Translations under genes and position numbers: made by a program
The notes under the pieces: generated by a model
Databases searched by the model: none
Seen by the model: the letters and a program-made list of their open reading frames with translations, nothing else
Told to the model about the DNA's origin: nothing
Shown: positions 3,178-63,104 of the stretch, in pieces
Layout of the letters: every line of letters begins with the position of its first letter
Numbering within the stretch: position 1 is the stretch's first letter
NCBI RefSeq assembly: GCF_037974265.1
Contig: NZ_CP150233.1
Span: 4,092,001-4,156,000 of the forward strand
Length of the DNA stretch: 64,000 nucleotides
Direction: 5' to 3'
DNA from: Paenibacillus sp. FSL R5-0623
GTDB lineage: Bacteria; Bacillota; Bacilli; Paenibacillales; Paenibacillaceae

Positions 3178-3523
3178 TTAATATTCCATCTCCTCTAAGC
3201 TGCAAAAAAATTCTTAGCCAGCTCGTCGCCTCTTTCATTATCATGACTAGTATGTCTCATCCAAAAGTAAACTAGACGACATCAACCGACATGCGCATGC
3301 ATGCCGGTCACAGCAACACGCCCCGAATGAGGGACGCTGGCAAGTTAGATCGTTGCGACAGAACCTCAAGGCCCTCTTCTCCAATCATCGCATTCATTCC
3401 GGATCTGCGCGGAATAATCATACTAAATATGGTACTTGATTTTACGGTATCGGGCAACGTGACACCCCTTGTGAAATTGTATACATATCATACCCGGTCA
3501 CATTACGAGTAAAACACTACGAA
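3178..3523. other. Intergenic region without a recognised gene
   Basis: Between the ABC permease stop and the ArAE start codon lie about 345 bases. The only open frame of note (plus strand, 3291-3512) has no ribosome binding site and no protein-like pattern. The ribosome binding site of the exporter gene is at the left edge. I see no clear terminator or riboswitch. Confidence 0.5.
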
Positions 3524-28872: not shown

Positions 28873-31800
28873 TTAATAACTGTTCGACGTAATCGATGCA
28901 AGTTCGTTTATTTTAACTTCCGAGTTACTTACCACCTGTTGAATCATGGAAATAAAGTGTTTTTGAATCTGTTCAACAGTAGATGGGTCATACACATTCG
29001 CATTGTACATCAAAATGATCTTCATATTTTCATGGGGTTTGACGATCAAAGTAAAATCAAAACTATTATGTTCTGTACCCCCAATATTCATAATCTCAAG
29101 CGGTGTTTCACCTTTCTGACCCAGACTCTCCATTCGGTTCTCTACCGGGAAGTTCTGATACACAACAACATGGTTAATCAGAGATTGTTTTTGCTTGGTC
29201 AGATTTTGAATATCATATAACGAATACGTATCATATGCATGTGACTCCACAGCTTGTGCCTGATTCCTTTTCATTAGAGATATAAATGACTCATCGGCCT
29301 GAGCCTGGATACGAACAGGAATCGCATTAATAAATAATCCAATCATACTTTCGATCCCAGGAATGACAGGTGGTCTGCCCGACACAACACTTCCGAATAC
29401 AACATCATTGCTTTCATTGTATTGCTGCAACAATACACCCCAGGCAGTCTGCACTAACGTATGGAGCGTTACATGCTGCTGTTCCGCAATCTGTTTCATT
29501 TGCTCGATTAGTAAATCATCCAAATAACAGTTTAGCGTTCTGGAATCCTGTCTTTCATGTTTTGGTTTGATTTTTTCTCCAGGCAATTTCGTTTGCCCTT
29601 CATAACCTTCCAGGTAATGACTCCAATACGTTATTGCACCTTGATGATCTTGCTGTTCCAGCCATTCAATGAATTGACTATAAGGTGTTAATAGAGTCAC
29701 TTGAGGCTTTCTATTTTCCCGAATCGCAAAATAATTCTCAAATATCTCTTTGCTTACCAGAGACATACACCAGCCGTCCATCAAAATATGGTGAAAACTC
29801 CATATGACGCGGTATTCCTCATGGTTTGTTCGTAAAACAGACATACGTATTAGCGAATCTCGTTGTAAGTCAAATCCTCTCGCCTTGTCTTGCTCGATAT
29901 ACTCGTCAACATACGTTTTACGTTGCAACTCACTTGTACCAGCTACAACTTCATAGTTAAATTCAAATTTCTTCTCTTGATACACGATTTGAAGAGGGAT
30001 ATCCACAAAATCACTGTAAAAATTAGTTCTTAATATCGCATGCCTTTGCATTAATTGATCCAAACTTTGTGCAAAAGAGGTAACATCCAAATCTCCACGC
30101 ATATCAAACATGATTTGTACAAAGTACGCGCCCGAAATTGGATTCCGTTCACTTTCGTACAACATTTCCTTCTGTAATGGTGTAAGTGGGTACACATTTT
30201 CGATTCGACCGATGTGCCCAGTTTGTTCCACGATTTGATCCAATTGATCAATGGTTAATGACTTGCATGAAATATCACTTGGCGTCAGCTCGGTTTGTTC
30301 CTTCGTTACACAATGTTCAACGACTCTATTAAGACCTTCCTTATAGAGACAAGCCAATTGCTCCATCGTTTCCCGGCGATATTGTTTTGAACTATAGTTA
30401 ATGGACAGCGACAACTGACCCTCTGTAACAATGCCATTGATATTAAGCACAAATGGTCTCTTGTTGTTTTCACTTACGGATGGCCCGCTGGAATAATGCG
30501 AGAATTTAATGCCATCTTGGCCCGAATCCTGATTCACCTGTCCCATATAGTTGAAACTAATTTCGGGATTTTTCTCTAACTTGAATCCTTCATTTCCATG
30601 TGACAAATACCTCGAAATCCCGTAACCAATGCCCTTGGTTGGGATCTGGCGCAGTCCTTCCTTGACGGTCTTAATCTTCCTTGATAAGTCAGCCCCGGAC
30701 TCCATCGTAATCATAACGGGGTACATACTCGTAAACCATCCCACTGTACGCATAATGTCCAGCTCTGGCAGGATGTCTTCTCTACCATGCCCTTCCAAGT
30801 TCACGAGGATTTCTCCCATGCCTGTCCAATCATGAACAGCCATTCCTAATGCCGTTAGCAATATATCATTAATTTCCGTATGGTACGCATGATGTGTTTG
30901 CTTTAATAATTGCTCGGTTTCCGCTGTGGTCCAATGAATGGTGATCGTTTCACTATCTTTGCCAATCGTCTCATCACAATCCATATCTTTAGGCAGTGGG
31001 CTTAGCTGGGCCTGCTCCACACGACTCAAGTATGGATTCTCTTGCTTCATCGCCGGGCTGTCTGCGAACGTAGACAATTGTTCTGCCCATTGTTTAAACG
31101 AGGTCGTTTTTTGAGGAAGCCGGATTTCTTCACCTCTTAAGAACTGGTCTTGCCCTGTCTGAATATCTTCATATAAAATACGCCATGATACCCCGTCTAC
31201 CAACAAATGATGAATGGCAATAAGCAGGTGATCCCCTTCAGCACATTGGAACAACCCAAGTTTGATCAAAGGTCCGTGAGACAGATCCATACCACTCTGA
31301 ATTTCTTTTGCTTTATTTTCAATGAACGATGCAGGATATGCTTCTGTTTTGAGGTCAACGATTTCAAGGCTGTATAATCCATCTTCGTCTGCCCCTCGAT
31401 TCCACGCTTCATATCCGCCTTCAGGCGCTTGTCGATAAAGGATGCGGAGAGCATCATGCTGTTTCACGATCTGATCCATGATGCTGTGAATGAAGCGGAC
31501 ATCAAACCCTTTTTCACGAAAGAACATCATTTCCTGATTGTAATGATGTGCGTCCACCATATTTTGATCAAAGAACCAGCGCTGAACAGGTGTCAGTATC
31601 ACTTGTCCCGTAACTTCCCCTTGGTCAGAAATAGTGCTCACGGATGTAACGTGTTCACTCAACTCTGCTACTGTCGGATAGGTGAAGAAATGCTTCATTT
31701 CCACTTTATACCCTGCTTGAAGCAGTCGTGAGGAAACTTGAATACATTTAATCGAATCGCCCCCGAGTTCAAAGAAATGATCTGATGTGCTAACCTGCTG

Positions 31801-34800
31801 AACACCAAGCACAGCTTCCCAGGCAGAGACGATCGCTTGTTCTACAGCGTTCTGCGGCGCCATATACTCGGTCCCTTTTTGCATATGTTCTTGTGGAGAT
31901 GGCAATGCCTTTCGGTCAACCTTTCCATTAGATGTTAACGGTATATGCTCTAATTGAATAAAATAAGACGGGATCATATAATCCGGAATTTCATGAGATA
32001 ATGCCATTCTGATTTTCTTCGCTGTCAGTGAACTGTCGCCTTTCCAATACGCACACAACTGCTTCGAACCATCCTCATGCTCACGGGCAATAACGACCGC
32101 TTCCTGAATGGAGTCCATTTGCAAAAGCGCAGTTTCCACTTCACCAAGCTCAATTCGGTAACCTCGAATTTTCACTTGATGATCGATTCGTCCCAGATAT
32201 TCCATATTTCCATCCGGCAGCCATCTTGCGGCATCTCCTGTGCGATACATTTTCCCTTCTGTAATCCAGGGATGATCAACAAATTTCTCTGCGGTTAAAT
32301 CAGGCCGGTTCAGATAACCTCTGGCAAGGCCCTCACCTGCTACAACTAATTCTCCCTGAACACCGATCGGTTGAATGCGTTGATGTTTATCCAAAATATA
32401 GGTCTGCAACGTCGGGATTGGTTTTCCAATATTGCTCTTTCCAGCATGTATTTCAATGTCGGTTATTTCCTTATACGTTACATGAACCGTTGTTTCGGTT
32501 ATCCCATACATATTAATTAACTGGATAAATGGATATTTCAGCTTCCATTCCTTCAATAACACGGGATTGAGGGCTTCTCCTCCAAAAATCACTTTTCTTA
32601 ATTTCAAATCTGCTGCATGACCTGCCAGTTCTTCCTGAAGAAGATGATAGAAATACGTTGGCGTTTGATTCAATATCGTCACTTGCTCGATTTTTAACAA
32701 TTGTAGAAATTGTTCCGGACTTTTGGCCGTCATTTGAGGTACGATAACCAGTTTTCCGCCATAGAGCAATGCTCCGTACATCTCCCATACCGAAAAATCA
32801 AAACAAAAGGAATGGAATAATGTCCATGTATCTGATGCATTAAAATCAAACAAATTTTTACTGTTGAACAACAATCGCACCACATTTTTATGTTCAATAC
32901 ATGTCCCTTTTGGTTTACCTGTCGTTCCTGAAGTATAGATCACGTAGGCCAAGCCTGTTGATGTAGCAGTAACTCCCAAGTTCGAATGATCTTCATGATA
33001 GGACTTAGGTTGATCCAGGCAAACGACCTCTCCTGCAAAAGAGATGCGTTCTTGCAAATGACTTTGCATTAATAATACAAGTACACCCGAATCCTCAAGC
33101 ATGTAGTTTATACGATCCTCCGGATATTCAGGATCAATCGGCACGTATGCGCCACCCGCTTTCAATATCGCAAGGATTCCTACAACCATGTCTAGCGAAC
33201 GATCAGCGATGATCCCGATTAACTGATCATTTTGAATGCCTTTAGCCTTCAGCGTTCTTGCCAATTGGTTGGCTTTCTCGTTCAGCCCTTGATAGGTCAA
33301 ATGTTGATCCTCAAATACAACCGCAACGTGTGCAGGAGTCCTTGCTGCCTGTTCCTCAAACAGTCCATGAATCGTCTTGTCCTTTGGATAATCAGCCATG
33401 GAATCATTAAACTGTTCCAAAATTTGTGTTTTCTCCTGTGTTGTGGTCAAGTCAATGTCGTGGATCGGAATATTCGGATTGTTGACCACTTGCTCCAACA
33501 TCTGAATCAAGTGACCTTGAATGCGTTCTACGCTTGCCCGATCATAGACGTTAGCATTGTAATAGAACATACATTTCATGGATTGGCCTGGTTTAATAAT
33601 CAGGTTAAAGTCATAATTCGTTTGTTCATCTGCTTCTACATTCGTAATCCGAAGAGCTGTCTCTTCCCGATCCCCAAACTGTTCCATAATGCCCTGTACA
33701 GGATAATTCTCGAATATCAGGATATGATCAATCAAATTTTGCTTTTGCGATGTTTCCGCTTGAATCTCGTATAACGGATACGTGTCATGTGGATGCGAAG
33801 CGACAGCATGTTCCTGATTCCGCTTCATAATCGCTGCAAATGTCTCGTTACCTTGAGTCTGAACGCGTACAGGAATGGTATTGATGAATAAACCAATGAT
33901 TCGCTCCACTCCAACAATCGCCGCAGGTCTGCCCGACACCACGCTTCCGAATACAACATCCTCACTGCCGTTATATATCTGTAGCAACATTCCCCACGCT
34001 GTCTGCATGAACGTATTCAACGTCACCTGATTCTGACTGGCCACTTGTGCGATTTGTCCGGTTAATTCCTGACTAAGTGTACAAATCATATGCTCTGAAT
34101 GATATTCATCACTCTTCGTAATTGAATGTTCTTTTGGCAAAGTGGTCTGCTCATCATAACCTTGCAAATAGTCACGCCAGTATTTCAGGGACTCTTCATG
34201 ATCTTGGTTGTCCAGCCATTCAATATAGTGTTTGTATGGAATCGTACTCTTTGTCTCCAGTTTTCGTTGTTCCTGAATAGCAAAGTATCCATCAAACAAC
34301 TCCTGGATTACAAGAGACAGGCACCAGCCATCCATTAAAATATGATGATAATTCCAAATGAAACGATAGGTTTGGTCTTGCGTTTGCAAGATCGAGATAC
34401 GCATTAACACATCCTGAGACAGGTCGAAACCTTTTATTTTATCTGCTCTTGTATAGTCTGCCACGTATGCTTTACGATCTTTTTCATTCATCTCACGCAA
34501 ATCTTCGTATATAAGCCCATTCCGTTTATGACGATATACCACTTGCAGAGGTCCATTCTTCCATTTGCTGTGGAAATTCGTTCTGAGAATCGAATTACGC
34601 TGCATCAACTGATCCAGACTCTTCGTAAAAGCTTCCACGTCTAACGAACCATGAAGATCCAGCGTGGTTTGAAGGAAATACGCTTCAGACTTTGAATGAA
34701 GCAGATGATGAAAGAACATCCCATTTTGCATCGGTGACAAAGCATATATATCTTCGATTTCACCAATGTGTTCCGATTCTTGAACAAATCCTTCTAATTC

Positions 34801-37800
34801 TTCAATCGTAATTCCTTTTAACGTTAGATCACTTGGTGTACATTCCGGCTTCTCTTTTGTCACACAATGCATTACGATTTCTTGCAGATGATCTCTAAAA
34901 TATGTTGCCACTCGCTCCATCGTTTCTTTTCGATATTGGGTGCGACTATACCGAAGTGACAACGTCAATTTGCCTTCCACAATTAAGGCATTCATATCGA
35001 TAAGGACATTTCTTCTGTGATTGTCGCTTGCTGTTGCTCCGCCTGGATAGGGAGAGATCTGCATCCCGCTATTCTGAAGATCCTGATCAAATTGACCCAA
35101 ATAGTTAAAACTAATTTCAGGATTCAAGGTAAAGGGCGCTTCTTGCTGATGTGCACTTAAATATCGTAAAATACCATAACCAATCCCTTTTTTAGGGATT
35201 TGACGAATCATTTCTTTGTTTGTTTTGATGAAAAGAGACATATTTGAACTTGCTTCCATATCAAGTACAACCGGATACTGGCTCGTAAACCATCCGATCG
35301 TTCGTGTAATATCGAGATCCGGTAAAATTTGTTCTCTTCCATGTCCCTCCAGATTGACCAGCACTTTATCCATGCCTGTCCATTGGTGAATAGACATGCC
35401 TAATGCATGGAGCAGCAAATCGCTAATCTCCGTTTTATACGCACGATTCGCTAGTTTTAATAATTGCTCCGTTTCTGCCGCTGACCATTCCATGGTGATC
35501 TCTTCGCTGTCTTTTTCCAGTGCATGATCCGCTTCGAAATCTGTAGGTAACGGCTTATAGGTTGCTTTTTCAATTTCATTCCAATATGCAAACTCTTGCG
35601 TTATCGCATCACTGTTCGCATACAACTGGAGCTGTTCTGCCCATAATTGAAAGGAAGTCGTTTTTTGCGGTAGTTGAATGGGTTCTCCATCACTTAATTG
35701 TTCATAGCCCCTCGATAGGTCTTCGATGAAAATTCGCCACGAAACTCCGTCGATGACGAGGTGATGAATAACGATTAATAGATGATCTCCATCTGTACAT
35801 TGAAACACGCCCAGCTTCATCAAAGGTCCACGTTCCAAAGTAAACGTGCTTTGCATTTCATTTGCCTTCTTCTCGATTTCTTGAGACGGATCTGCTAATG
35901 ATTTGAAGTCCATCACTTCAAGTGTGTATAAGGGTTCCTTTTCCTGCCCTTCATTCCACGCTTCATAACCCTGTTCTGTGAGGCGATATACCATACGAAG
36001 TGCATCATGATGCTCACTCAGTTTATCGAATACACGGCGAAGTGTGGCTTCGTGAAAACCTTCTTTCCGATACAGCATCACGGACTGATTATAATGATGG
36101 GCGTCCACCTTGTATTGCTCAAAAAACCAATGCTGGATTGGAGTCAGCATCACTTTTCCAGTGATGATTCCCTGTTCTGACAGGGTACTTATGGATTTAA
36201 CATAGGGAATCAAGCTTGCTATGGTTGGATTTTTAAACAGATGATCCATCTGCACCTGGTAACCCGCTTGATATAACCTCGAAGAAACTTGAATGGATTT
36301 AATCGAATCTCCTCCAAGCTCGAAGAAATTATCCAAAATCCCAATGTTCTCTACCCCAAGTACCTCTTCCCAGATCGATACAAGTTGTTGTTCCACCATC
36401 GTTCGGGGTGCTTCGTACTCCATGCCCTTCAACATATGTTCTTTGGGAGCAGGCAAAACTTTGCGATCGATTTTCCCGTTAGACGTGAGCGGCATCTGAT
36501 CCAGCTGTACAAAATAGGACGGAATCATGTAGTTTGGCAGCTGCTGGGACAGCGTCTCCCGCAGTTCCCCGATCGTGATTGCATCCTCTCCTACCAGGTA
36601 CGCACATAATTGTTTGGTTCCTGTTTCATCTTCTCTGGCTATGACGATGGCCTCTTTTATCTGGGTACTATTTAGAAGAGCCGTCTCTACTTCACCAAGT
36701 TCAATCCGGTGTCCACGAATTTTCTCTTGATGATCTACCCTTCCTATATACTCTATGTTCCCATCTGGCAGCCATCTTGCGAAGTCACCTGTCTTGTACA
36801 TTTTTGCTCCCGAAACAAATGGATCATCCACAAATTTCTCCGCAGTCAGATCTGGACGGTTCAAGTAACCTCTGGATAGCCCTGCTCCGGCCACACATAA
36901 TTCTCCCTGAACTCCAATAGGCTGCAATTCATTCCGTTCTCCTAAAATGTAGACTCTATTGTTCGCAATAGGCTTCCCGATTGAGATATTTTGATCTGCC
37001 GACTTGATCGACAGAACTGTGGATACAACACTATTTTCGGTTGGACCGTATTCATTACACACTTCGATGCGTGGATTGATGCGCTGCAATTTGTGTATCA
37101 AGGCAGGAACAATCTTCTCTCCCGCAGCCACCACATTTTTCATGGATGCCCAATCTTCCGCGCTTACTTGTTCCAATAGGGTCATCAAGAAACTGGGTGG
37201 ACTTTGGATGTGCGTGATTTGCTGTTTTTTGACCATCGTATTGATAGCTATAGCATCTTTACACTGTTGCTGGTTTAACAAATACACTGTCGAGCCAGAT
37301 ATCATCGGACCAAAGAAATGAGTAATAAATGAATCAAAAACGAAAGGATTCAGCATTAATACCCGATCATCTCCGGTAAAATGATAAAAATCCGATTTCC
37401 ATTGCAGGGAATTCACAATGCTGGCATGTTCAATCATTACGCCTTTGGGATGACCTGTTGTTCCAGACGTGTAGATCATGTATGCCAAATCACTGGAGAT
37501 CGCTCCATCTACCAAATTTAAATGATCCTCATAGTGATTTATTTCAGAATCCAGAATGACACATGTCCCTGCAAAATGTTCAGGTTCCTGTATATGACTT
37601 TGATGCAGCAACCAAGCCACTTTTGAATCCTCAAGGATGTAATGAATACGATCTGCCGGATATTCCGGATCGATTGGGACATATGCCCCGCCAGCTTTTA
37701 GAATACCGAATAGACCTATGATCATCTCAAATGAGCGCTCTGTCATAATGCCAACGAACTGACCCGCCTGCACCCCCTTAGCTTGAAGCAATCGGGCCAA

Positions 37801-38694
37801 TTGGTTGGATTTTTGATTTAACTCTCTGTACGTTAACTGTCTATTCTCAAATACGACTGCCGGATGATCCGGTGTTCGCTCCACCTGTTCTTCAAATAAT
37901 TGATGCATCGTCTTGTTCTGTGGATACTCAACCCTTGTATCGTTAAAGTCATATAACAGCTTGTTTCGATGAAACTCTGATAACATATCAACTTGACTTA
38001 GCTCCAGATCAGGTTGGTTCAGCACAATGGAAAACAATTGGTCAAGATGCTCTACAATTTGAACCATATAATCGCGATCATAACGATCATCATCATAAAC
38101 TAATCTTAACTGAATGGAGTCGTTCTCCAGATCAAAGTGGAACATTGTCGCCGCTTTTACGTTATTTTCATCAAGGGCTGGATGAATTTCATTCAACGAA
38201 ACCAAGGTATGAATTAGAGGTACATGGTTCGAATCATACTGAACATTTAAACGTTCAACCATTTTTCTGAAAGGGATTCGTTGATGCTGAATGGCTTCCG
38301 TTAAACTGGTCTTCACTTGATTAAATACGGACTTGAATGACATCGCATGATTGATATTATTTTTTAAGACAAGAACCTTATTCGAGAGCGATAGATCATT
38401 GTTCTTTTCTTCCATCGTTGGTATGCCAATAATCATCTTGGTTTCATTCGTGTATTTATATAACAGACACTGAACTCCCGTTAATAATATCGTGTAAATG
38501 GCCATAGGCGCATTACGCGACATGGACTTGATTTTATATGAAACATCGGCTGACATAGGCTTATATATATAATTATGGCGCTGCGTATCGTCTAAGTGCT
38601 TGGAGATTGTCTTGCAATAAGGCAAATGAACAAGATGATCATCATCTTCAAATCGGCTTGCCCAATACGATTCCTGTTTCTTAAAAATAGACAT
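28873..38694 (-). CDS. NRPS (MycB/ItuB-like), partial C-A-PCP-E-C-A-PCP-E-C, no release domain
   Basis: A 3273-residue peptide synthetase. Domain order: C-terminal half of a C domain without HHxxxDG (1-235); A1 (255-750); PCP (Ser797 in LGGDSIKS); E (848-1290, HHLVIDG); DCL-type C (1313-1750, HHILMDG at 1450); A2 (1772-2265); PCP (Ser2314); E (2365-2805, HHLLVDG); DCL-type C (2832-3260, HHILMDG at 2968). It should add two residues and epimerise both to D. My reading of the A2 code is DFWNIGMVHK, the classic Thr code. A1 reads DSTQVAEVVK, which I cannot assign; it shares D-S and A-E-V with a remembered His code. The stop follows the last C domain directly: no further module and no thioesterase. 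It starts 48 bases after the upstream synthetase gene (GGGGTG SD). Canonical MycB/ItuB has four modules, so this is about half that size. Confidence 0.93.
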   Translation of the reverse strand: MSIFKKQESYWASRFEDDDHLVHLPYCKTISKHLDDTQRHNYIYKPMSADVSYKIKSMSRNAPMAIYTILLTGVQCLLYKYTNETKMIIGIPTMEEKNNDLSLSNKVLVLKNNINHAMSFKSVFNQVKTSLTEAIQHQRIPFRKMVERLNVQYDSNHVPLIHTLVSLNEIHPALDENNVKAATMFHFDLENDSIQLRLVYDDDRYDRDYMVQIVEHLDQLFSIVLNQPDLELSQVDMLSEFHRNKLLYDFNDTRVEYPQNKTMHQLFEEQVERTPDHPAVVFENRQLTYRELNQKSNQLARLLQAKGVQAGQFVGIMTERSFEMIIGLFGILKAGGAYVPIDPEYPADRIHYILEDSKVAWLLHQSHIQEPEHFAGTCVILDSEINHYEDHLNLVDGAISSDLAYMIYTSGTTGHPKGVMIEHASIVNSLQWKSDFYHFTGDDRVLMLNPFVFDSFITHFFGPMISGSTVYLLNQQQCKDAIAINTMVKKQQITHIQSPPSFLMTLLEQVSAEDWASMKNVVAAGEKIVPALIHKLQRINPRIEVCNEYGPTENSVVSTVLSIKSADQNISIGKPIANNRVYILGERNELQPIGVQGELCVAGAGLSRGYLNRPDLTAEKFVDDPFVSGAKMYKTGDFARWLPDGNIEYIGRVDHQEKIRGHRIELGEVETALLNSTQIKEAIVIAREDETGTKQLCAYLVGEDAITIGELRETLSQQLPNYMIPSYFVQLDQMPLTSNGKIDRKVLPAPKEHMLKGMEYEAPRTMVEQQLVSIWEEVLGVENIGILDNFFELGGDSIKSIQVSSRLYQAGYQVQMDHLFKNPTIASLIPYVKSISTLSEQGIITGKVMLTPIQHWFFEQYKVDAHHYNQSVMLYRKEGFHEATLRRVFDKLSEHHDALRMVYRLTEQGYEAWNEGQEKEPLYTLEVMDFKSLADPSQEIEKKANEMQSTFTLERGPLMKLGVFQCTDGDHLLIVIHHLVIDGVSWRIFIEDLSRGYEQLSDGEPIQLPQKTTSFQLWAEQLQLYANSDAITQEFAYWNEIEKATYKPLPTDFEADHALEKDSEEITMEWSAAETEQLLKLANRAYKTEISDLLLHALGMSIHQWTGMDKVLVNLEGHGREQILPDLDITRTIGWFTSQYPVVLDMEASSNMSLFIKTNKEMIRQIPKKGIGYGILRYLSAHQQEAPFTLNPEISFNYLGQFDQDLQNSGMQISPYPGGATASDNHRRNVLIDMNALIVEGKLTLSLRYSRTQYRKETMERVATYFRDHLQEIVMHCVTKEKPECTPSDLTLKGITIEELEGFVQESEHIGEIEDIYALSPMQNGMFFHHLLHSKSEAYFLQTTLDLHGSLDVEAFTKSLDQLMQRNSILRTNFHSKWKNGPLQVVYRHKRNGLIYEDLREMNEKDRKAYVADYTRADKIKGFDLSQDVLMRISILQTQDQTYRFIWNYHHILMDGWCLSLVIQELFDGYFAIQEQRKLETKSTIPYKHYIEWLDNQDHEESLKYWRDYLQGYDEQTTLPKEHSITKSDEYHSEHMICTLSQELTGQIAQVASQNQVTLNTFMQTAWGMLLQIYNGSEDVVFGSVVSGRPAAIVGVERIIGLFINTIPVRVQTQGNETFAAIMKRNQEHAVASHPHDTYPLYEIQAETSQKQNLIDHILIFENYPVQGIMEQFGDREETALRITNVEADEQTNYDFNLIIKPGQSMKCMFYYNANVYDRASVERIQGHLIQMLEQVVNNPNIPIHDIDLTTTQEKTQILEQFNDSMADYPKDKTIHGLFEEQAARTPAHVAVVFEDQHLTYQGLNEKANQLARTLKAKGIQNDQLIGIIADRSLDMVVGILAILKAGGAYVPIDPEYPEDRINYMLEDSGVLVLLMQSHLQERISFAGEVVCLDQPKSYHEDHSNLGVTATSTGLAYVIYTSGTTGKPKGTCIEHKNVVRLLFNSKNLFDFNASDTWTLFHSFCFDFSVWEMYGALLYGGKLVIVPQMTAKSPEQFLQLLKIEQVTILNQTPTYFYHLLQEELAGHAADLKLRKVIFGGEALNPVLLKEWKLKYPFIQLINMYGITETTVHVTYKEITDIEIHAGKSNIGKPIPTLQTYILDKHQRIQPIGVQGELVVAGEGLARGYLNRPDLTAEKFVDHPWITEGKMYRTGDAARWLPDGNMEYLGRIDHQVKIRGYRIELGEVETALLQMDSIQEAVVIAREHEDGSKQLCAYWKGDSSLTAKKIRMALSHEIPDYMIPSYFIQLEHIPLTSNGKVDRKALPSPQEHMQKGTEYMAPQNAVEQAIVSAWEAVLGVQQVSTSDHFFELGGDSIKCIQVSSRLLQAGYKVEMKHFFTYPTVAELSEHVTSVSTISDQGEVTGQVILTPVQRWFFDQNMVDAHHYNQEMMFFREKGFDVRFIHSIMDQIVKQHDALRILYRQAPEGGYEAWNRGADEDGLYSLEIVDLKTEAYPASFIENKAKEIQSGMDLSHGPLIKLGLFQCAEGDHLLIAIHHLLVDGVSWRILYEDIQTGQDQFLRGEEIRLPQKTTSFKQWAEQLSTFADSPAMKQENPYLSRVEQAQLSPLPKDMDCDETIGKDSETITIHWTTAETEQLLKQTHHAYHTEINDILLTALGMAVHDWTGMGEILVNLEGHGREDILPELDIMRTVGWFTSMYPVMITMESGADLSRKIKTVKEGLRQIPTKGIGYGISRYLSHGNEGFKLEKNPEISFNYMGQVNQDSGQDGIKFSHYSSGPSVSENNKRPFVLNINGIVTEGQLSLSINYSSKQYRRETMEQLACLYKEGLNRVVEHCVTKEQTELTPSDISCKSLTIDQLDQIVEQTGHIGRIENVYPLTPLQKEMLYESERNPISGAYFVQIMFDMRGDLDVTSFAQSLDQLMQRHAILRTNFYSDFVDIPLQIVYQEKKFEFNYEVVAGTSELQRKTYVDEYIEQDKARGFDLQRDSLIRMSVLRTNHEEYRVIWSFHHILMDGWCMSLVSKEIFENYFAIRENRKPQVTLLTPYSQFIEWLEQQDHQGAITYWSHYLEGYEGQTKLPGEKIKPKHERQDSRTLNCYLDDLLIEQMKQIAEQQHVTLHTLVQTAWGVLLQQYNESNDVVFGSVVSGRPPVIPGIESMIGLFINAIPVRIQAQADESFISLMKRNQAQAVESHAYDTYSLYDIQNLTKQKQSLINHVVVYQNFPVENRMESLGQKGETPLEIMNIGGTEHNSFDFTLIVKPHENMKIILMYNANVYDPSTVEQIQKHFISMIQQVVSNSEVKINELASITSNSY

Positions 38695-38742
38695 ATGGCA
38701 CCCCGATCACATTTATATTTTTGAGACACGTCCTAGGTTATT

Positions 38743-50646
<11,904 letters not shown>

Positions 50647-50694
50647 TCATCTCTAACATGCTTATCTAATTATTTACACATATTTCAAGCAAAA

Positions 50695-50750
50695 TTTTAC
50701 CATAGAAATATATGTAAAATCAATCAATTTATTGTTACTATATGGTAAAA
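50695..50750 (-). promoter_or_regulatory. Promoter of the hybrid synthetase operon with inverted repeat
   Basis: On the minus strand TTGATT (50727-50722) and TATGGT (50704-50699) are 17 bases apart. The -10 lies in TTTTACCATA (50695-50704), whose exact reverse complement TATGGTAAAA is at 50741-50750 upstream of the -35. A degenerate third copy (TATGTAAAA, 50711-50719) lies between. The paired 10-mers could bind a regulator around the promoter. No regulator gene is nearby. Confidence 0.5.
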
Positions 50751-50828
50751 AATAGAGATTGATTCGTAAGTTATTGACATATTTAATACCAAACATCTGA
50801 AGTTTCAACAAGTTTAGATGCATTAAAA

Positions 50829-50861
50829 GACAAAAAGACTACCTTATAAAAAGGCAGTCTG
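50829..50861 (-). terminator. Intrinsic terminator after the MAT gene
   Basis: AGACTGCCTT and AAGGTAGTCT pair with one mismatch across a short loop; on the minus strand TTTTTGTCTTT follows. It lies about 40 bases past the MAT stop, so MAT and the synthetases are probably separate transcripts or linked by partial readthrough. Confidence 0.8.
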
Positions 50862-50900
50862 TCGCTGTAATATAGATCTTGCAAAAGAAAAGTTCGGGTA

Positions 50901-52106
50901 CTAGATTGCATCAATCAACGCTGTTCCATCCAATGGAATTTTCTTTGCTATAATAATGGAATGACATACCTGTAGAGCATCATTTATCTCTTCTTCACTG
51001 AGTTCGTATCCATTCTTGTGTATTTGTTCCTGTACCCGTTGTAAATGATGAAATAATGGCTCAACCATTTGGGCATATGATATCGAATCTTGGTTATAAT
51101 TCCGTGAAGTGAGTGCGGTTACCATTAGTTCTGATAACAACTTTTTACGAATCGTTAACCGTTTATTTTTCCTTTCTTGTGTATTTGTAAGCATTAGTAA
51201 ATCGGAAGGTTGACTTAGCGAGTAAGGTAGAATACTCTTCGTTATTTTACTCATAAGACTAACTAACACATGTTTAGAACCCAACTCTATAACTTCATTA
51301 ACCCCATTTGCAACCAGATAGCGCATAGACTCTGACCATCTTACAGACATCGTCATCTGCATGTTTAAGTAATCCACGACAGATCGATCAGACTCATAGG
51401 GTGCTGCTGTAACATTGGAAATAATCGGGTATTTTGCATGGGCATATTGATATTGATCCAATTCAACTTTGAATTGTTCTGCTGCGGTTTGCATCATAGG
51501 TGAATGATAGGGACCACTTACATTGATATAAGAATGTTTTGTTCCCAGGGTTTCTGTCCTTTTAATAATTTCTTGTATAGAGTGCCGATGTCCCGAAATG
51601 ACAAACTGCTGGTCAGCGTTCATACAAGCCACACAGGCAGGGCGTTCTTTTGTTGAAACTTCTTCGCATATGTTTTGAAGTGTATCTAATCGAATGTGTG
51701 AAATGGCCACCATGGTCCCTTGCTGATCCGGGTCTGCATTGTGCATAATGATCCCTCGTTGTCTCACAAGTTTAATAGCGTCACGAAAAGATAGAACACC
51801 AGCGCATACCAGAGCCGAATATTCTCCCAAACTATGCCCAGCCAAATAAGCGGGTTCCATCCCTATTTCTTGCATATAAACTTGATAAGCAATGACACTA
51901 ACAGTCAAAAGTGCAGGCTGAGCGTTCATCGTCATTGTCAAATCATTCATACTACCTTCAAAACATAACTTTCTCAAATCGAAAGAAATGGCTTCACTGG
52001 CTTCTTCAAATAACTTCTTAGCCACATCGAAGTTATTCCAAAAGTCTCTACCCATCCCAACCATCTGGGAACCTTGTCCAGGAAACAACAGAGCTACATT
52101 ACTCAT
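50901..52106 (-). CDS. Malonyl-CoA:ACP transacylase of the lipopeptide locus (FenF/ItuD-like)
   Basis: A roughly 401-residue trans-acting acyltransferase. The catalytic serine motif GHSLGEYSAL is near residue 90, the N-terminal LFPGQGSQMVGMG block is present, and the general-base His sits in VSGPYHSPMM. After the standard MAT domain (about 290 residues) a helical C-terminal extension of about 100 residues follows, as in FenF/ItuD/BmyD of iturin-type clusters. It should load malonyl onto an ACP of the KS module, which lacks its own AT. The ATG at 52106 has GGAGG seven bases upstream. It looks notably AT-rich. It ends in its own terminator before the synthetase promoter. Confidence 0.92.
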   Translation of the reverse strand: MSNVALLFPGQGSQMVGMGRDFWNNFDVAKKLFEEASEAISFDLRKLCFEGSMNDLTMTMNAQPALLTVSVIAYQVYMQEIGMEPAYLAGHSLGEYSALVCAGVLSFRDAIKLVRQRGIIMHNADPDQQGTMVAISHIRLDTLQNICEEVSTKERPACVACMNADQQFVISGHRHSIQEIIKRTETLGTKHSYINVSGPYHSPMMQTAAEQFKVELDQYQYAHAKYPIISNVTAAPYESDRSVVDYLNMQMTMSVRWSESMRYLVANGVNEVIELGSKHVLVSLMSKITKSILPYSLSQPSDLLMLTNTQERKNKRLTIRKKLLSELMVTALTSRNYNQDSISYAQMVEPLFHHLQRVQEQIHKNGYELSEEEINDALQVCHSIIIAKKIPLDGTALIDAI

Positions 52107-52247
52107 CCAGCATCCTCCATGTATCAACTTTATATTTCATACACATCGACAACCAAAAACCAATAAATTCCTTGTTTGCAAAATTTATAATAAACTTTCA
52201 TTGGGAGTTATGCAATAATAAAGTCAAAAGGAGGGTCTTCTATTCCT

Positions 52248-56234: not shown

Positions 56235-57701
<1,467 letters not shown>

Positions 57702-57711
57702 TTAGTTTGAA

Positions 57712-59640
<1,929 letters not shown>

Positions 59641-59670
59641 CTAAGTAGACTCCCCATGAATTTTTGAAAC

Positions 59671-59771
59671 AAATAAAACCTGAACCACTGAACATACACA
59701 ACATACCGGATCGTCCGGAAATCAGTCGTGTTATTCAGCAATTCAGGTTTTGCCCTTAACGGTTGCAACCC
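59671..59771 (-). promoter_or_regulatory. RAT antiterminator site and overlapping terminator before PTS copy 1
   Basis: On the minus strand a 26-base RAT (59771-59746) starts GGGTTGCAACC and ends GGGCAAAACC. Its last bases form the left arm of a terminator: AAACCTGAATTGCTGAA pairs with the TTCAGTGGTTCAGGTTTT arm ending near 59673. LicT bound to the RAT would prevent terminator formation. The site is 46 bases upstream of the PTS start. Confidence 0.88.
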
Positions 59772-59853
59772 TGTAAGGCTGTACACATTGGTATTTAATT
59801 ATTTGGATAACGAAAGTAAGTTACATTCCATACCCTCTGAACTGAGGATGGTC

Positions 59854-59882
59854 GGCATTGCCTGATTGAACAGTTACAATCC
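59854..59882 (-). promoter_or_regulatory. Second, promoter-proximal RAT-like site upstream of PTS copy 1
   Basis: A 29-base segment beginning GGATTGTAACTG and ending CAGGCAATGCC (minus strand) matches the LicT-type RAT and differs at only a few positions from the RAT in the licT leader. It is followed by a CATCCTC/GAGGGTATG hairpin but no clear T run, so its partner terminator is weak or lost. Confidence 0.75.
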
Positions 59883-59888
59883 GATTGA

Positions 59889-59902
59889 TGTATGCGCTTA
59901 CT
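59889..59902. promoter_or_regulatory. cre-like catabolite repression site near the PTS copy 1 promoter
   Basis: TGTATGCGCTTACT matches the cre consensus TGWAARCGYTWNCW at 13 of 14 positions. It lies about 10-23 bases downstream of the -10 box, where bound CcpA would act as a roadblock. Confidence 0.65.
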
Positions 59903-59912
59903 TCTTGAACTC

Positions 59913-59941
59913 ATCATAGTACATCTGAACTACGTTTGCAA
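59913..59941 (-). promoter_or_regulatory. Promoter for PTS copy 1 and bglH
   Basis: On the minus strand TTGCAA (59941-59936) and TATGAT (59918-59913) are 17 bases apart, followed by the cre-like and RAT sites. Confidence 0.65.
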
Positions 59942-59983
59942 CACTTATTTTTATTAAGTTCGCAAATACATTGGAGTGACCGA

Positions 59984-60027
59984 AAATGAAAAAAAGAGAC
60001 CACTTCGAAAACATCAAAGTGGTCTCT
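59984..60027 (-). terminator. Intrinsic terminator after PTS copy 2
   Basis: AGAGACCACTT pairs with AAGTGGTCTCT around a short loop; a long T run follows on the minus strand, about 45 bases past the PTS copy 2 stop. It insulates the two PTS genes, giving the second its own promoter. Confidence 0.88.
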
Positions 60028-60071
60028 ATGAAGCTAATGTTCAGATTAATAAAATACCCACTAAAGCAGAA

Positions 60072-62009
60072 TTAACCTATAACCGTAACCAATTTATCCT
60101 TTTCTTGCACTTCACGACTTGTTGTAGCAACCACGTCCAAATAATCAGCCGTATTCGTTACAATAATCGGTGTTACGGTCTCATAACCCGCCTCAATAAT
60201 AGCCTGCAGATCGAATTCAACGATCAGATCGCCAACACTCACCCGATCCCCATCTTTCACATGGGCAGTGAAATGTTGACCTTTGAGCTGTACCGTATCC
60301 TGACCGATATGGATCAGAATCTCTACACCTTGATCATCTACCAGACCAATTGCATGTTTGGTACGGTATATCGTCTGTACCACACCATTAATCGGGGATA
60401 CAACTCTTCCACTGGTTGGGCGAATAGCAATCCCTTTACCCATATGTTCACCAGCAAATGTAGCATCATTAATTTCTTGCAAAGGAACTACCTCACCCGT
60501 CATCGGGCTGGTAATTTCGTAGCGATTGTTGGGATTAGGCTCAAGTGCAGCCTTCTCTTCTTTTACTGGCTCTGGAGCCTGTTTGGCAGCCTCTGGATTA
60601 GCAGGATCTTTGAATCCTACAAAATAAACGAGAACAAAACCTAGTACAAAAGCAATGATAGTGGCAATCATGGCCATCCAGAATTCATAGTTGATCCCCT
60701 CTGTGGGACTAATCAGCGCTGGAACACCAAAGATTCCTGAAGCAAATACAAACATTTTGGAACCTGCGAAGCCAATAATACCACCAGCCGTTGCAGAAGC
60801 AATACAACTCATAATAAATGGTTTTTTCAATGGCAACGTAAGGCCATAAATAGCAGGCTCAGTTACACCAAAAATCCCGGACACAAAAGCAGGAACACCC
60901 AGTGATTTAAGTTTGGTATTTTTTGTTTTAAGCATAACCCCAAGAACGGCACCAATCTGAGCAAAAGAAGCAGCAAACATCATCGCCAGAATCGGATCTG
61001 CTTTCAGAGTGGACAGATTGAGCAACATGATTGGTACGATACCCCAGTGTAACCCGAAGATAACCAATACTTGCCACAATCCACCAACAACAATACCAGT
61101 CACCAACGGACTCAAGTCATAGATGCCCGATACCCCGGCACCAATCAGCTGACTTGCCCATGTCGCGATTGGACCAATCAAAAGGAATGTTACAGGTACA
61201 ACAATCAGAATTGTAAAGAATGGCGTGAGGAATGTTCTCACAACAGAAGGAATGATTTTTTTGAAGAACGTTTCTACCTTTGCTCCAAAATAAGCAGCAA
61301 TAATAATCGGAATGACGGATGAGGAATAACTCATCAAGATAACGGGAATACCCAGGAACGTGATATGAATCGGTGATTCAAACAATGTGCCTGCAAACAG
61401 CGTATAGAGCGGTTCCCCACCACTAAGACCTGATAAGGTCGGATATACTAGTGATGCTCCGATGGCCATCCCGAGGAATGGAGATCCACCGAATTTTTTC
61501 ATAGCTGTGTAACCCAGGAAGATTGGGAAGAAGTAGAACAGACAGTCTCCTGCAGCATTCAACAATTGATATGTTCCTGAAGCCGGGTCCAGCCATTCGA
61601 GAGAAGTGAACATGGACAGGAAACCTTTGATCATCCCTGTTGCAGCTAGCAATCCGAGAATTGGTGTAAATACACCTGAGATCAAGTCGATAAACTGACC
61701 CAAGAGACTCTCTTTTTTACCGGAAGATTCTGAATCAGCAGTTGAGACCGGTTCATCCGCATTCATATTACCCACCTGTAACAAGGCTTTATACACATCA
61801 GACACTTCGTTACCCACAACGACCTGGTATTGCCCCCCGCTTTGCATTACCGTTATGACTCCGGGCAGATTTTTGAGCTCGTCTGTTTTGGCATTATTGT
61901 CATTTTTTAATTTGAAACGAAGTCTGGTCGCACAGTGCACCACGCTGTTAATGTTCTGTTTACCACCAACGCCAGACAGAATGTCCTTGGCTAATTGCTC
62001 GTGTTTCAT
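60072..62009 (-). CDS. Beta-glucoside-specific PTS enzyme IIBCA (copy 2)
   Basis: A 645-residue IIBCA protein with the same layout as its neighbour. EIIB has Cys26 (VHCATRLRF), EIIC spans about 100-480 and EIIA has His567 (LIHIGQDTV). Copies 1 and 2 are near-identical over long blocks (for example [20 protein letters not shown]) but differ in the IIC-IIA linker, which here is Glu/Pro/Ala-rich. A tandem duplication followed by divergence is likely. I set the start at 62009 (MKHEQLAKD), with AAGGAAG eleven bases upstream; the longer frame runs into the terminator. Controlled by a RAT/terminator unit behind licT. Confidence 0.92.
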   Translation of the reverse strand: MKHEQLAKDILSGVGGKQNINSVVHCATRLRFKLKNDNNAKTDELKNLPGVITVMQSGGQYQVVVGNEVSDVYKALLQVGNMNADEPVSTADSESSGKKESLLGQFIDLISGVFTPILGLLAATGMIKGFLSMFTSLEWLDPASGTYQLLNAAGDCLFYFFPIFLGYTAMKKFGGSPFLGMAIGASLVYPTLSGLSGGEPLYTLFAGTLFESPIHITFLGIPVILMSYSSSVIPIIIAAYFGAKVETFFKKIIPSVVRTFLTPFFTILIVVPVTFLLIGPIATWASQLIGAGVSGIYDLSPLVTGIVVGGLWQVLVIFGLHWGIVPIMLLNLSTLKADPILAMMFAASFAQIGAVLGVMLKTKNTKLKSLGVPAFVSGIFGVTEPAIYGLTLPLKKPFIMSCIASATAGGIIGFAGSKMFVFASGIFGVPALISPTEGINYEFWMAMIATIIAFVLGFVLVYFVGFKDPANPEAAKQAPEPVKEEKAALEPNPNNRYEITSPMTGEVVPLQEINDATFAGEHMGKGIAIRPTSGRVVSPINGVVQTIYRTKHAIGLVDDQGVEILIHIGQDTVQLKGQHFTAHVKDGDRVSVGDLIVEFDLQAIIEAGYETVTPIIVTNTADYLDVVATTSREVQEKDKLVTVIG

Positions 62010-62063
62010 GAAGTCTTTTTCTTCCTTTCTGGCTAGACACGGATTCGAAGCATATTGGAGAGA

Positions 62064-62158
62064 ATAAAAAAACCTGAACATCTGAATGTATGGAACATCC
62101 GGTTAACGGTATGTTCTGTCATTCAAGCGTTCAGGTTTTGCCCTAGTGGTTGCAACCC
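62064..62158 (-). promoter_or_regulatory. RAT antiterminator site and overlapping terminator between licT and PTS copy 2
   Basis: On the minus strand a 25-base RAT (62158-62134) starts GGGTTGCAACC and ends GGGCAAAACC. It overlaps the terminator arm AACCTGAACGCTTGAATG, which pairs with CATTCAGATGTTCAGGTT and is followed by a run of T residues. The RAT begins 20 bases after the licT stop. Confidence 0.9.
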
Positions 62159-62177: not shown

Positions 62178-63020
62178 TTATTCAGAAGTTGCATTCACAA
62201 CTCTCTCAATATGGATCGTTAAGTACATCAATTCTTCGTCAGTTAGTTGATACGTGTAGTTGCTTTCAATGAATTTCTTGATTTTCTCCGAGCACTTGTG
62301 CGCTGCTGGATACTTTTTCTGAATCATCAGGAACAGTTCATCATCGTTGTTGCTCTTGTAATGTTTTCCCTTCACCAAACGTTGGGCGAAAAACTTCAAA
62401 TGTGTCACAAAGCGATAAAATGTCAGCGAGTTCTCATCAAAATCAATCTTGAAATGATACTTGATGATTGTCAAGATCTCCTGCATGACCTGCGTCATAC
62501 TCTTGATGTTGGGCATTTCCTCATTCAACGCTGCATTGACAAAGTGAAGTGCCATAAAACCGGCTTCGTCCTCGGGCAGGATTACACCAAACTGATCACA
62601 GATCATATTGAGCGCTTCCATTCCGACTTCGTATTCCTCTTTGTATAACTGCTTTGTCTCCCAGATCAACCCGTTGCGTATAGGCAGATTCTTGCGATAC
62701 CGCTCAATGGCAAAGTGAATATGGTCTGTGAGATGTAAGTAAATGCTCTCATTCAGTTTCTTGCCAAGTTTTAATTTGGCATAAGCGATAATTTCCTCGG
62801 ACACTTTCATGTATTCCAGAGGAATGCTTGAGATTAATGCCTTGAAGTTTTCCTGAATATCTTCATTCTGTAAAGTAAATATCTTATCGATATGCTGCTC
62901 GGAAACCATATCACCCGCCCGCTTCTGATAAGCAATCCCCCGGCCAATGATAATAACTTCCTGTTGTTCGTCATTCATCGCAACTACAGCATTATTGTTC
63001 AGCACCTTCTCGATTTTCAC
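62178..63020 (-). CDS. licT: LicT/BglG family transcriptional antiterminator
   Basis: A 280-residue RNA-binding regulator. Residues 1-55 form the CAT domain (KIEKVLNNNAVVAMN, IIGRGIAYQKRAGD) that binds RAT hairpins. Two PRD domains follow (about 65-170 and 172-280) with conserved histidines (HLTDHIHFAIER, MALHFVNAA, YLTIHIERV) that are phosphorylated by the PTS to set activity. I chose the GTG at 63020, seven bases from GGAG, because the CAT domain then begins exactly at residue 1. It controls the two PTS genes and its own leader. Confidence 0.93.
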   Translation of the reverse strand: MKIEKVLNNNAVVAMNDEQQEVIIIGRGIAYQKRAGDMVSEQHIDKIFTLQNEDIQENFKALISSIPLEYMKVSEEIIAYAKLKLGKKLNESIYLHLTDHIHFAIERYRKNLPIRNGLIWETKQLYKEEYEVGMEALNMICDQFGVILPEDEAGFMALHFVNAALNEEMPNIKSMTQVMQEILTIIKYHFKIDFDENSLTFYRFVTHLKFFAQRLVKGKHYKSNNDDELFLMIQKKYPAAHKCSEKIKKFIESNYTYQLTDEELMYLTIHIERVVNATSE

Positions 63021-63039
63021 TTTATCACTCCAATATACA

Positions 63040-63104
63040 GAAAAAGACAAACCAATCCCTTTTCTCAAGGTATACGGCTTTGCCTGATTCAACAGTTACA
63101 ACCC
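63040..63104 (-). promoter_or_regulatory. RAT site and weak terminator in the licT leader
   Basis: A 29-base RAT (63104-63076) begins GGGTTGTAACTG and ends CAGGCAAAGCC on the minus strand. A hairpin AAAGCC/GGTTT with inner CCTT/AAGG and the tail GTCTTTTTC follows. LicT would thus promote its own transcription. The ribosome binding site lies just beyond. Confidence 0.8.

Follow-up and report, generated by a model that had tools for sequence, protein, structure and literature searches.

The window, a 64,000-nucleotide stretch of the Paenibacillus sp. FSL R5-0623 chromosome, carries a cassette that we take, with a probability of roughly 0.6, to be a complete iturin-derived lipotripeptide line (beta-aminoacyl-Glu-X-Thr) in which a specialised terminal condensation (C) domain would release the product, most likely by cyclisation through the beta-amino group. 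By analogy with known systems, release by this domain in some form is probable; cyclisation as its particular mode is a tentative assignment, at a little below even odds. Slightly more tentative again is the full picture of a bacterial macrocyclising C domain, born in an iturin line and making 13-membered cyclic lipotripeptides without a thioesterase, in a two-gene cassette spread among Paenibacillus-related genera.

Architecture of the cassette

All parts of the cassette lie on the minus strand: a trans-acting malonyl-CoA:ACP acyltransferase of the fabD/ituD type (50901..52127, with an ATG at 52106; TIGR00128, E 2.4e-91, 306 bits); gene A, a 3961-aa NRPS/PKS hybrid of the ItuA/MycA type (38743..50628); and gene B, a two-module NRPS of 3273 aa (28873..38694). 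Genes A and B are uninterrupted frames whose domains were assigned with Pfam, and gene B was also compared with ItuB. A first-pass annotation, made from the sequence alone, had described the loader order AL-ACP-KS-ACP-AMT-C-PCP-C-A-PCP-C with a trans MAT, and our domain searches agree: gene A contains KS, class-III aminotransferase, two AMP-binding and three C domains together with PCP stretches. The AL-ACP-KS-ACP-AMT loader (approximate limits 44899..50628; PF00501, PF00550, PF00109/PF02801 and PF00202, with a DTACSSS motif) is predicted to make and aminate a beta-keto fatty acid. It is followed by the adenylation domain A1 (40369..41931), by a C-terminal C domain of the LCL type (38839..40116; PF00668, 417 bits; HHIIADG) and by an acidic-hydrophobic docking tail (38746..38796) of the kind also seen on ItuA, ItuB, PmxE-like, PmxA-like and other C-ending subunits that have partners.

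Gene B contains five C/E stretches, two AMP-binding and two PCP domains by Pfam, in the order partial C-A-PCP-E-C-A-PCP-E-C. The two A/PCP/E modules and the intact terminal C domain with HHILMDG had been called and placed correctly in the first pass, to which we add the N-terminal partial C domain on the docking side (37975..38694; PF00668 positions 191-456); such a start is also found in true ItuB, and PmxA-like and PmxB-like subunits begin with similar partial C matches. The remaining domains are A2 (36415..37947), the epimerisation domain E2 (34870..36177; HHLVIDG), an internal DCL condensation domain (33475..34767; PF00668, 398 bits), A3 (31855..33447), E3 (30310..31617; HHLLVDG) and the terminal C domain (28891..30213), which bears no docking tail. 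Both E2 and E3 group with E domains in the tree.

Adenylation codes were read by hand, including the last variable letter, at which the script proved unreliable on iturin controls; the same reading returned Asn, Tyr, Asn, Gln, Pro, Asn and Ser for the iturin-type cluster of genome G673, and the method is thereby checked. It gives DAKDLGVVDK (Glu) for A1, DSTQVAEVVK for A2 and DFWNIGMVHK (Thr) for A3, so the line does not have iturin's Asn-Tyr-Asn start. The A1 code is the same in every cassette with an intact gene A, and those of A2 and A3 are identical in 15/15 cassettes. We assign no substrate (X) to A2, the positional counterpart of iturin Tyr2, whose code had no match in the open-licence literature. 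From these codes and the E domains, the incorporated residues would be L-Glu, a D-residue and D-Thr.

The G673 cluster consists of fabD and three synthetases: ItuA of 3982 aa, ItuB of 5361 aa, and ItuC, which has 2616 aa and the thioesterase motif GYSAG. Both lines have a trans malonyltransferase, the same loader order, an A-to-B junction of the same kind, and E domains in their second and third modules; the start and domain order of gene A equal those of true ItuA, and gene B corresponds to ItuB through its second module, together with the C domain that comes next. The window's line differs in having three modules where iturin's has seven, Glu-X-Thr where iturin's has Asn-Tyr-Asn, and an altered terminal C domain; it lacks ItuC and a thioesterase, and its gene B bears no docking tail. 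Pfam scans of genes A and B detected neither a thioesterase nor a reductase domain, and the scans together with the neighbouring genes bear out the first-pass statement that the window lacks a third synthetase and a thioesterase. It likewise lacks an Sfp gene, as had been reported; an Sfp-type PPTase sits elsewhere in the genome, at 6738039.

Between fabD and gene A (50836-50860, minus strand) there is a hairpin of 10 pairs that, with its T run, resembles a terminator, and fabD may thus have its own transcript, or the operon may be attenuated. A simple scan found no terminator 3' of gene B, where a small gene for a putative motility protein of the YjfB type (PF14070; 28497-28697) follows on the same strand.

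Conservation of the end point

Fourteen genomes, the window's among them, have intact copies of genes A and B, at about 75-97% identity to the window's. Of the 75 genomes of the genus, 12 have a relative of gene A at 80-96% identity, a count that includes the window's own and a frame-broken copy in G054; gene B also reaches a second genus (G179/P. glacialis, G217 and G236) and a member of another family (G451). When the order was searched with the terminal C domain (395 genomes, best four candidates per genome scored), cassette members appeared at 78-100% identity, after which identity fell to 53%.

Across 15 genomes, which represent three genera and at least four genomic settings, gene B stops at the same place, 305-307 residues past the last HH motif in all copies (306 aa past the first His of HHILMDG in the window), and the flanks vary among the common site, G053, P. 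glacialis, G217 and G451. An assembly break or frameshift at the end of gene B, which the first pass had allowed for, does not account for this end: the frame is open, the end recurs in 15 genomes, and the window sits in a single 6.97-Mb contig that is the whole genome (99.99% complete), which excludes an assembly end. A third iturin-family subunit with a C-terminal thioesterase was absent from the window and from up to 9 kb downstream of every copy (less at contig or locus ends), and no NRPS remnant resembling ItuB modules 4-5 or ItuC was detected within up to 9 kb downstream of each copy by a search that did detect its positive control.

A fabD homologue adjoins the cassette in most same-genus copies and is missing from that position in G053, L084 and G217. 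Flanking genes for HAD, alcohol dehydrogenase, aminotransferase and MFS proteins were rejected as pathway members: they lie on the opposite strand and do not adjoin the cassette at L084, G217 and G451. Downstream of the G053 copy, about 0.9 kb from gene B and on the same strand, is a 4'-phosphopantetheinyl transferase gene (PF01648; L107:9500-10171). In P. glacialis, the genes after gene B encode a type II thioesterase (PF00975) and a protein of 235 aa that matched nothing in Pfam (L084:32623-34092).

Selection and sequence change in the terminal C domain

The terminal C domain has a dN/dS of 0.072-0.115 across nine genome pairs (Nei-Gojobori; in the widest pairs dS approaches saturation), equal to or lower than most other domains. 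In a tree of bacterial C domains its copies form one clade beside the internal DCL domain of the same protein (the careful tree supports this at 93/92). The stem of the terminal C domain measures 0.60, that of the internal DCL 0.32; the two domains of gene B are 50% identical. Ten columns (E2843, E2847, F3008, H3078, A3124, S3158, N3210, S3211, F3212 and H3221) read EEFHASNSFH in the 15 terminal copies, with one single-residue exception, whereas other DCL domains, iturin's included, read GHYNTPTNYG there with few exceptions. As a control, columns conserved elsewhere were fixed differently in 14/96 cases in the terminal C domain and in 4/96 in the internal DCL. At the sequence level, this pattern is one of functional change followed by constraint, rather than decay.

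Modelling of the domain gives a full C fold at a pLDDT of 82.8, closest to the SrfA-C condensation domain (Z 44.8), and the structural match lists show a normal C fold and nothing beyond that. Among the bacterial C domains compared, the domain is by sequence and fold a DCL relative and probably not a fungal-type CT, a point against our proposal. Matching model residues 14-445 to chain residues 2565-2999 of the PCP-C structure 7KVW places E2843 (model residue 26) on R2577, by range arithmetic and if the start is ungapped. According to a review, this residue regulates the channel for the acceptor Ppant arm and is Arg in LCL domains and Gly or another small residue at the corresponding position of DCL and other C domains (PMC11546977); by the same range arithmetic, this acceptor gate position changes from G to E in the terminal C domain. 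The changes at 3210-3212 fall near the putrescine-binding residues of the glidonin C domain, a rough position counted from the catalytic His with no alignment (PMC10587159). Together, E2843 and the 3210-3212 changes suggest a domain that has ceased to serve an aminoacyl-PCP acceptor.

These data bear directly on the view that the locus is a non-functional truncated relic of an iturin or paenilarvin cluster; the first pass, too, had considered a truncated relic. In architecture gene B equals the first two ItuB modules with one C domain added, as such a relic might, and frame-broken copies do exist: gene B is in three ORFs beside an intact gene A in G037 (L100-L101), and gene A is broken into several ORFs beside an intact gene B in G054 (L085), an 89% complete assembly in which the breaks may be sequencing errors. 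Against this stand 14 intact copies across the wide divergence given above, strong purifying selection on every domain, unchanged substrate codes and the lack of any remnant downstream. Neither relaxed selection nor general breakage of frames, as expected of a decayed cluster, was found, and the first-pass argument that uninterrupted genes speak against decay is strengthened by intact frames in 14 genomes and a dN/dS of 0.07-0.12 in the terminal C domain. We regard a relic as very improbable.

Subunits that could follow gene B

Every examined C-ending subunit that precedes a partner with a partial-C start carries an acidic-hydrophobic tail: DLIEVDF on gene A, DSIQLNF on ItuA, STIELDF on ItuB, EVIDIIF on the PmxE-like and DTIEFAF on the PmxA-like subunit, DLDFNF on a 3041-aa protein at 5.99 Mb, SIELSF in G063 and EAEIDFAF in G274. 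Gene B has no such tail in 15/15 copies and ends in NELASITSNSY or similar. In two near-complete genomes, G016 and the single-contig G042, a PF00668 search found gene B's own start to be the only partial-C start, so there is no hand-over partner of the partial-C type in either.

The first pass had also suggested that the pathway may continue elsewhere on the chromosome and that a continuation gene with a thioesterase be sought. Other NRPS clusters with thioesterases do exist in the window's genome, and its partial-C starters comprise two polymyxin-type subunits and one subunit in the 5.98-6.02 Mb cluster; these already have upstream partners of their own, with docking tails. Thioesterase domains occur only within other clusters or alone, with two stand-alone thioesterases in the genome. 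The polymyxin-type, 2.85-2.90 Mb, 4.89 Mb and 5.98-6.02 Mb clusters were each rejected as a continuation, having docking tails and their own partners and no counterpart in G042 or G016. With gene B tail-less in 15/15 genomes and no other partial-C subunit in G042 and G016, a pathway split between the cassette and a distant NRPS is highly unlikely; possible acceptors are carrier proteins without a partial-C start. Among the three readings left open by the first pass, then, relic and continuation have both lost ground, and a compact lipotripeptide line released by its terminal C domain has gained it, through a conserved stop and fixed, lineage-specific residues.

Proposed product and release

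We propose that fabD and the AL-ACP-KS-ACP-AMT loader supply a beta-amino fatty acid, that three modules add L-Glu, the D-residue X and D-Thr, and that gene B is the last subunit of the line. Its terminal C domain, the sister of the internal DCL, keeps HHxxxDG and would have had its acceptor side re-shaped and become a release domain; it would take the D-Thr thioester, on which the beta-amino group of the fatty acid, made by the AMT and the nearest amine, would attack to give a 13-membered cyclic lipotripeptide.

Two other outcomes of the same anatomy have to be weighed against cyclisation. The terminal C domain might join the lipotripeptide to a free amine, such as a polyamine or a decarboxylated amino acid, giving a linear amide. 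The C domain C13 of glidonin does this with putrescine (PMC10587159), and a C domain is also the last domain of rhabdopeptide-type lines; the newly acidic E2843 and E2847 could hold a cation, and the change to NSF lies near the glidonin putrescine pocket by the same count from the catalytic His, made with no alignment. Yet none of the sites where the cassette occurs has an amine-making gene beside it, common metabolites though polyamines are, and the chain already has a built-in beta-amine, leaving amine capture a rather unlikely second. The product might instead be a linear free acid, if the terminal C domain hydrolysed the D-Thr thioester, for which the fungal IvoA CT is a precedent (PMC11546977), or held the chain for a stand-alone thioesterase; such thioesterases occur in the genome, and the P. 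glacialis copy has one directly downstream of it. A C domain that stalled and left hydrolysis to a type II thioesterase would indeed give partly the same anatomy, which weighs against our proposal. Stand-alone thioesterases are, however, unlinked to the cassette in the window and at most other sites, and a C domain that merely held the chain would not be expected to fix new residues in core motifs; we consider the linear acid more unlikely still. By analogy with known systems, cyclisation would thus rank first, amine capture next and hydrolysis last.

Relation to known systems

According to reviews, bacterial NRPSs normally release their products by means of a thioesterase or a reductase, and terminal C domains that cyclise are a fungal trait. 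Fungal CT domains cyclise peptides (PMC8949500, PMC11546977), and that of IvoA hydrolyses (PMC11546977). Those of the TqaA type resemble the proposed domain in being terminal, C-folded and TE-less in release, with a within-chain amine as nucleophile (PMC8949500, PMC11546977); they differ in being fungal, whereas the window's domain is a bacterial DCL relative. The glidonin NRPS of Schlegelella brevitalea is alike in that a C domain of the terminal module, instead of a thioesterase, performs release, with putrescine joined to the chain (PMC10587159), and unlike in that C13 is followed by a partial A, T and TE, the product is a linear dodecapeptide and the nucleophile is proven to be putrescine. 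The chain-ending C domain of gene B, with an intact HHxxxDG and no thioesterase behind it, has the anatomy of bacterial terminal-C amine release. Another relative in this respect is L087, which we take to be a rhabdopeptide/xenortide-type synthetase of Xenorhabdus: its final subunit also stops at a C domain without a thioesterase, but its subunits are short, with one to two modules, its match to the query is about 32%, and a beta-amino fatty acid loader was not seen.

A paenilarvin-like cluster of three genes, with 49-60% identity to paenilarvin proteins and the fourth gene missing, was reported in 2024 from Paenibacillus strains S231-2 and S293, which also carry polymyxin genes, and its structure was called 'certainly different' from paenilarvin (PMC11233627). 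This cluster is very probably the window's cassette. The report used antiSMASH only, leaving the missing gene unexplained and the domain end, conservation and release mechanism unaddressed (PMC11233627). Orthologues of every paenilarvin gene have been reported in P. amylolyticus GM1FR (PMC5786679), and full paenilarvin clusters may therefore also exist in the group. Among open-licence papers we found no lipotripeptide of this kind, and no report of a product, a conserved stop or a specialised terminal C domain.

If our reading is true, a bacterial lipopeptide line has lost its thioesterase and turned a standard DCL domain into one for release, and gene B offers, in its internal DCL and its terminal C, a natural before-and-after pair for locating the residues that turn elongation into release. 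The reading predicts undescribed small beta-amino lipopeptides in plant-associated Paenibacillus, from clusters that annotation pipelines label 'paenilarvin-like with a missing gene'.

Other clusters and neighbouring genes

Further synthetases were noted in the same set of genomes. The polymyxin-type cluster of the window's genome (G000:C1:6046174-6087323; L040-L042) encodes subunits of 6328, 1179 and 5019 aa, with Dab-type codes in several modules and a thioesterase in the 1179-aa subunit. G053 also has a lipopeptide cluster that is larger than the cassette, distinct from it and equipped with its kind of loader (L155-L156, G053:C1:1397528-1432313; 5287, 2592 and 3686 aa), and PF00668 matches suggest a similar one in P. 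glacialis (G075:C47). Within the window, two similar, consecutive PTS-permease-like genes (57712-62081) lie next to a PRD/CAT antiterminator gene (62178-63092), the one gene of this group covered by the Pfam check, and near a family-1-glycosidase-like gene (56235-57677).
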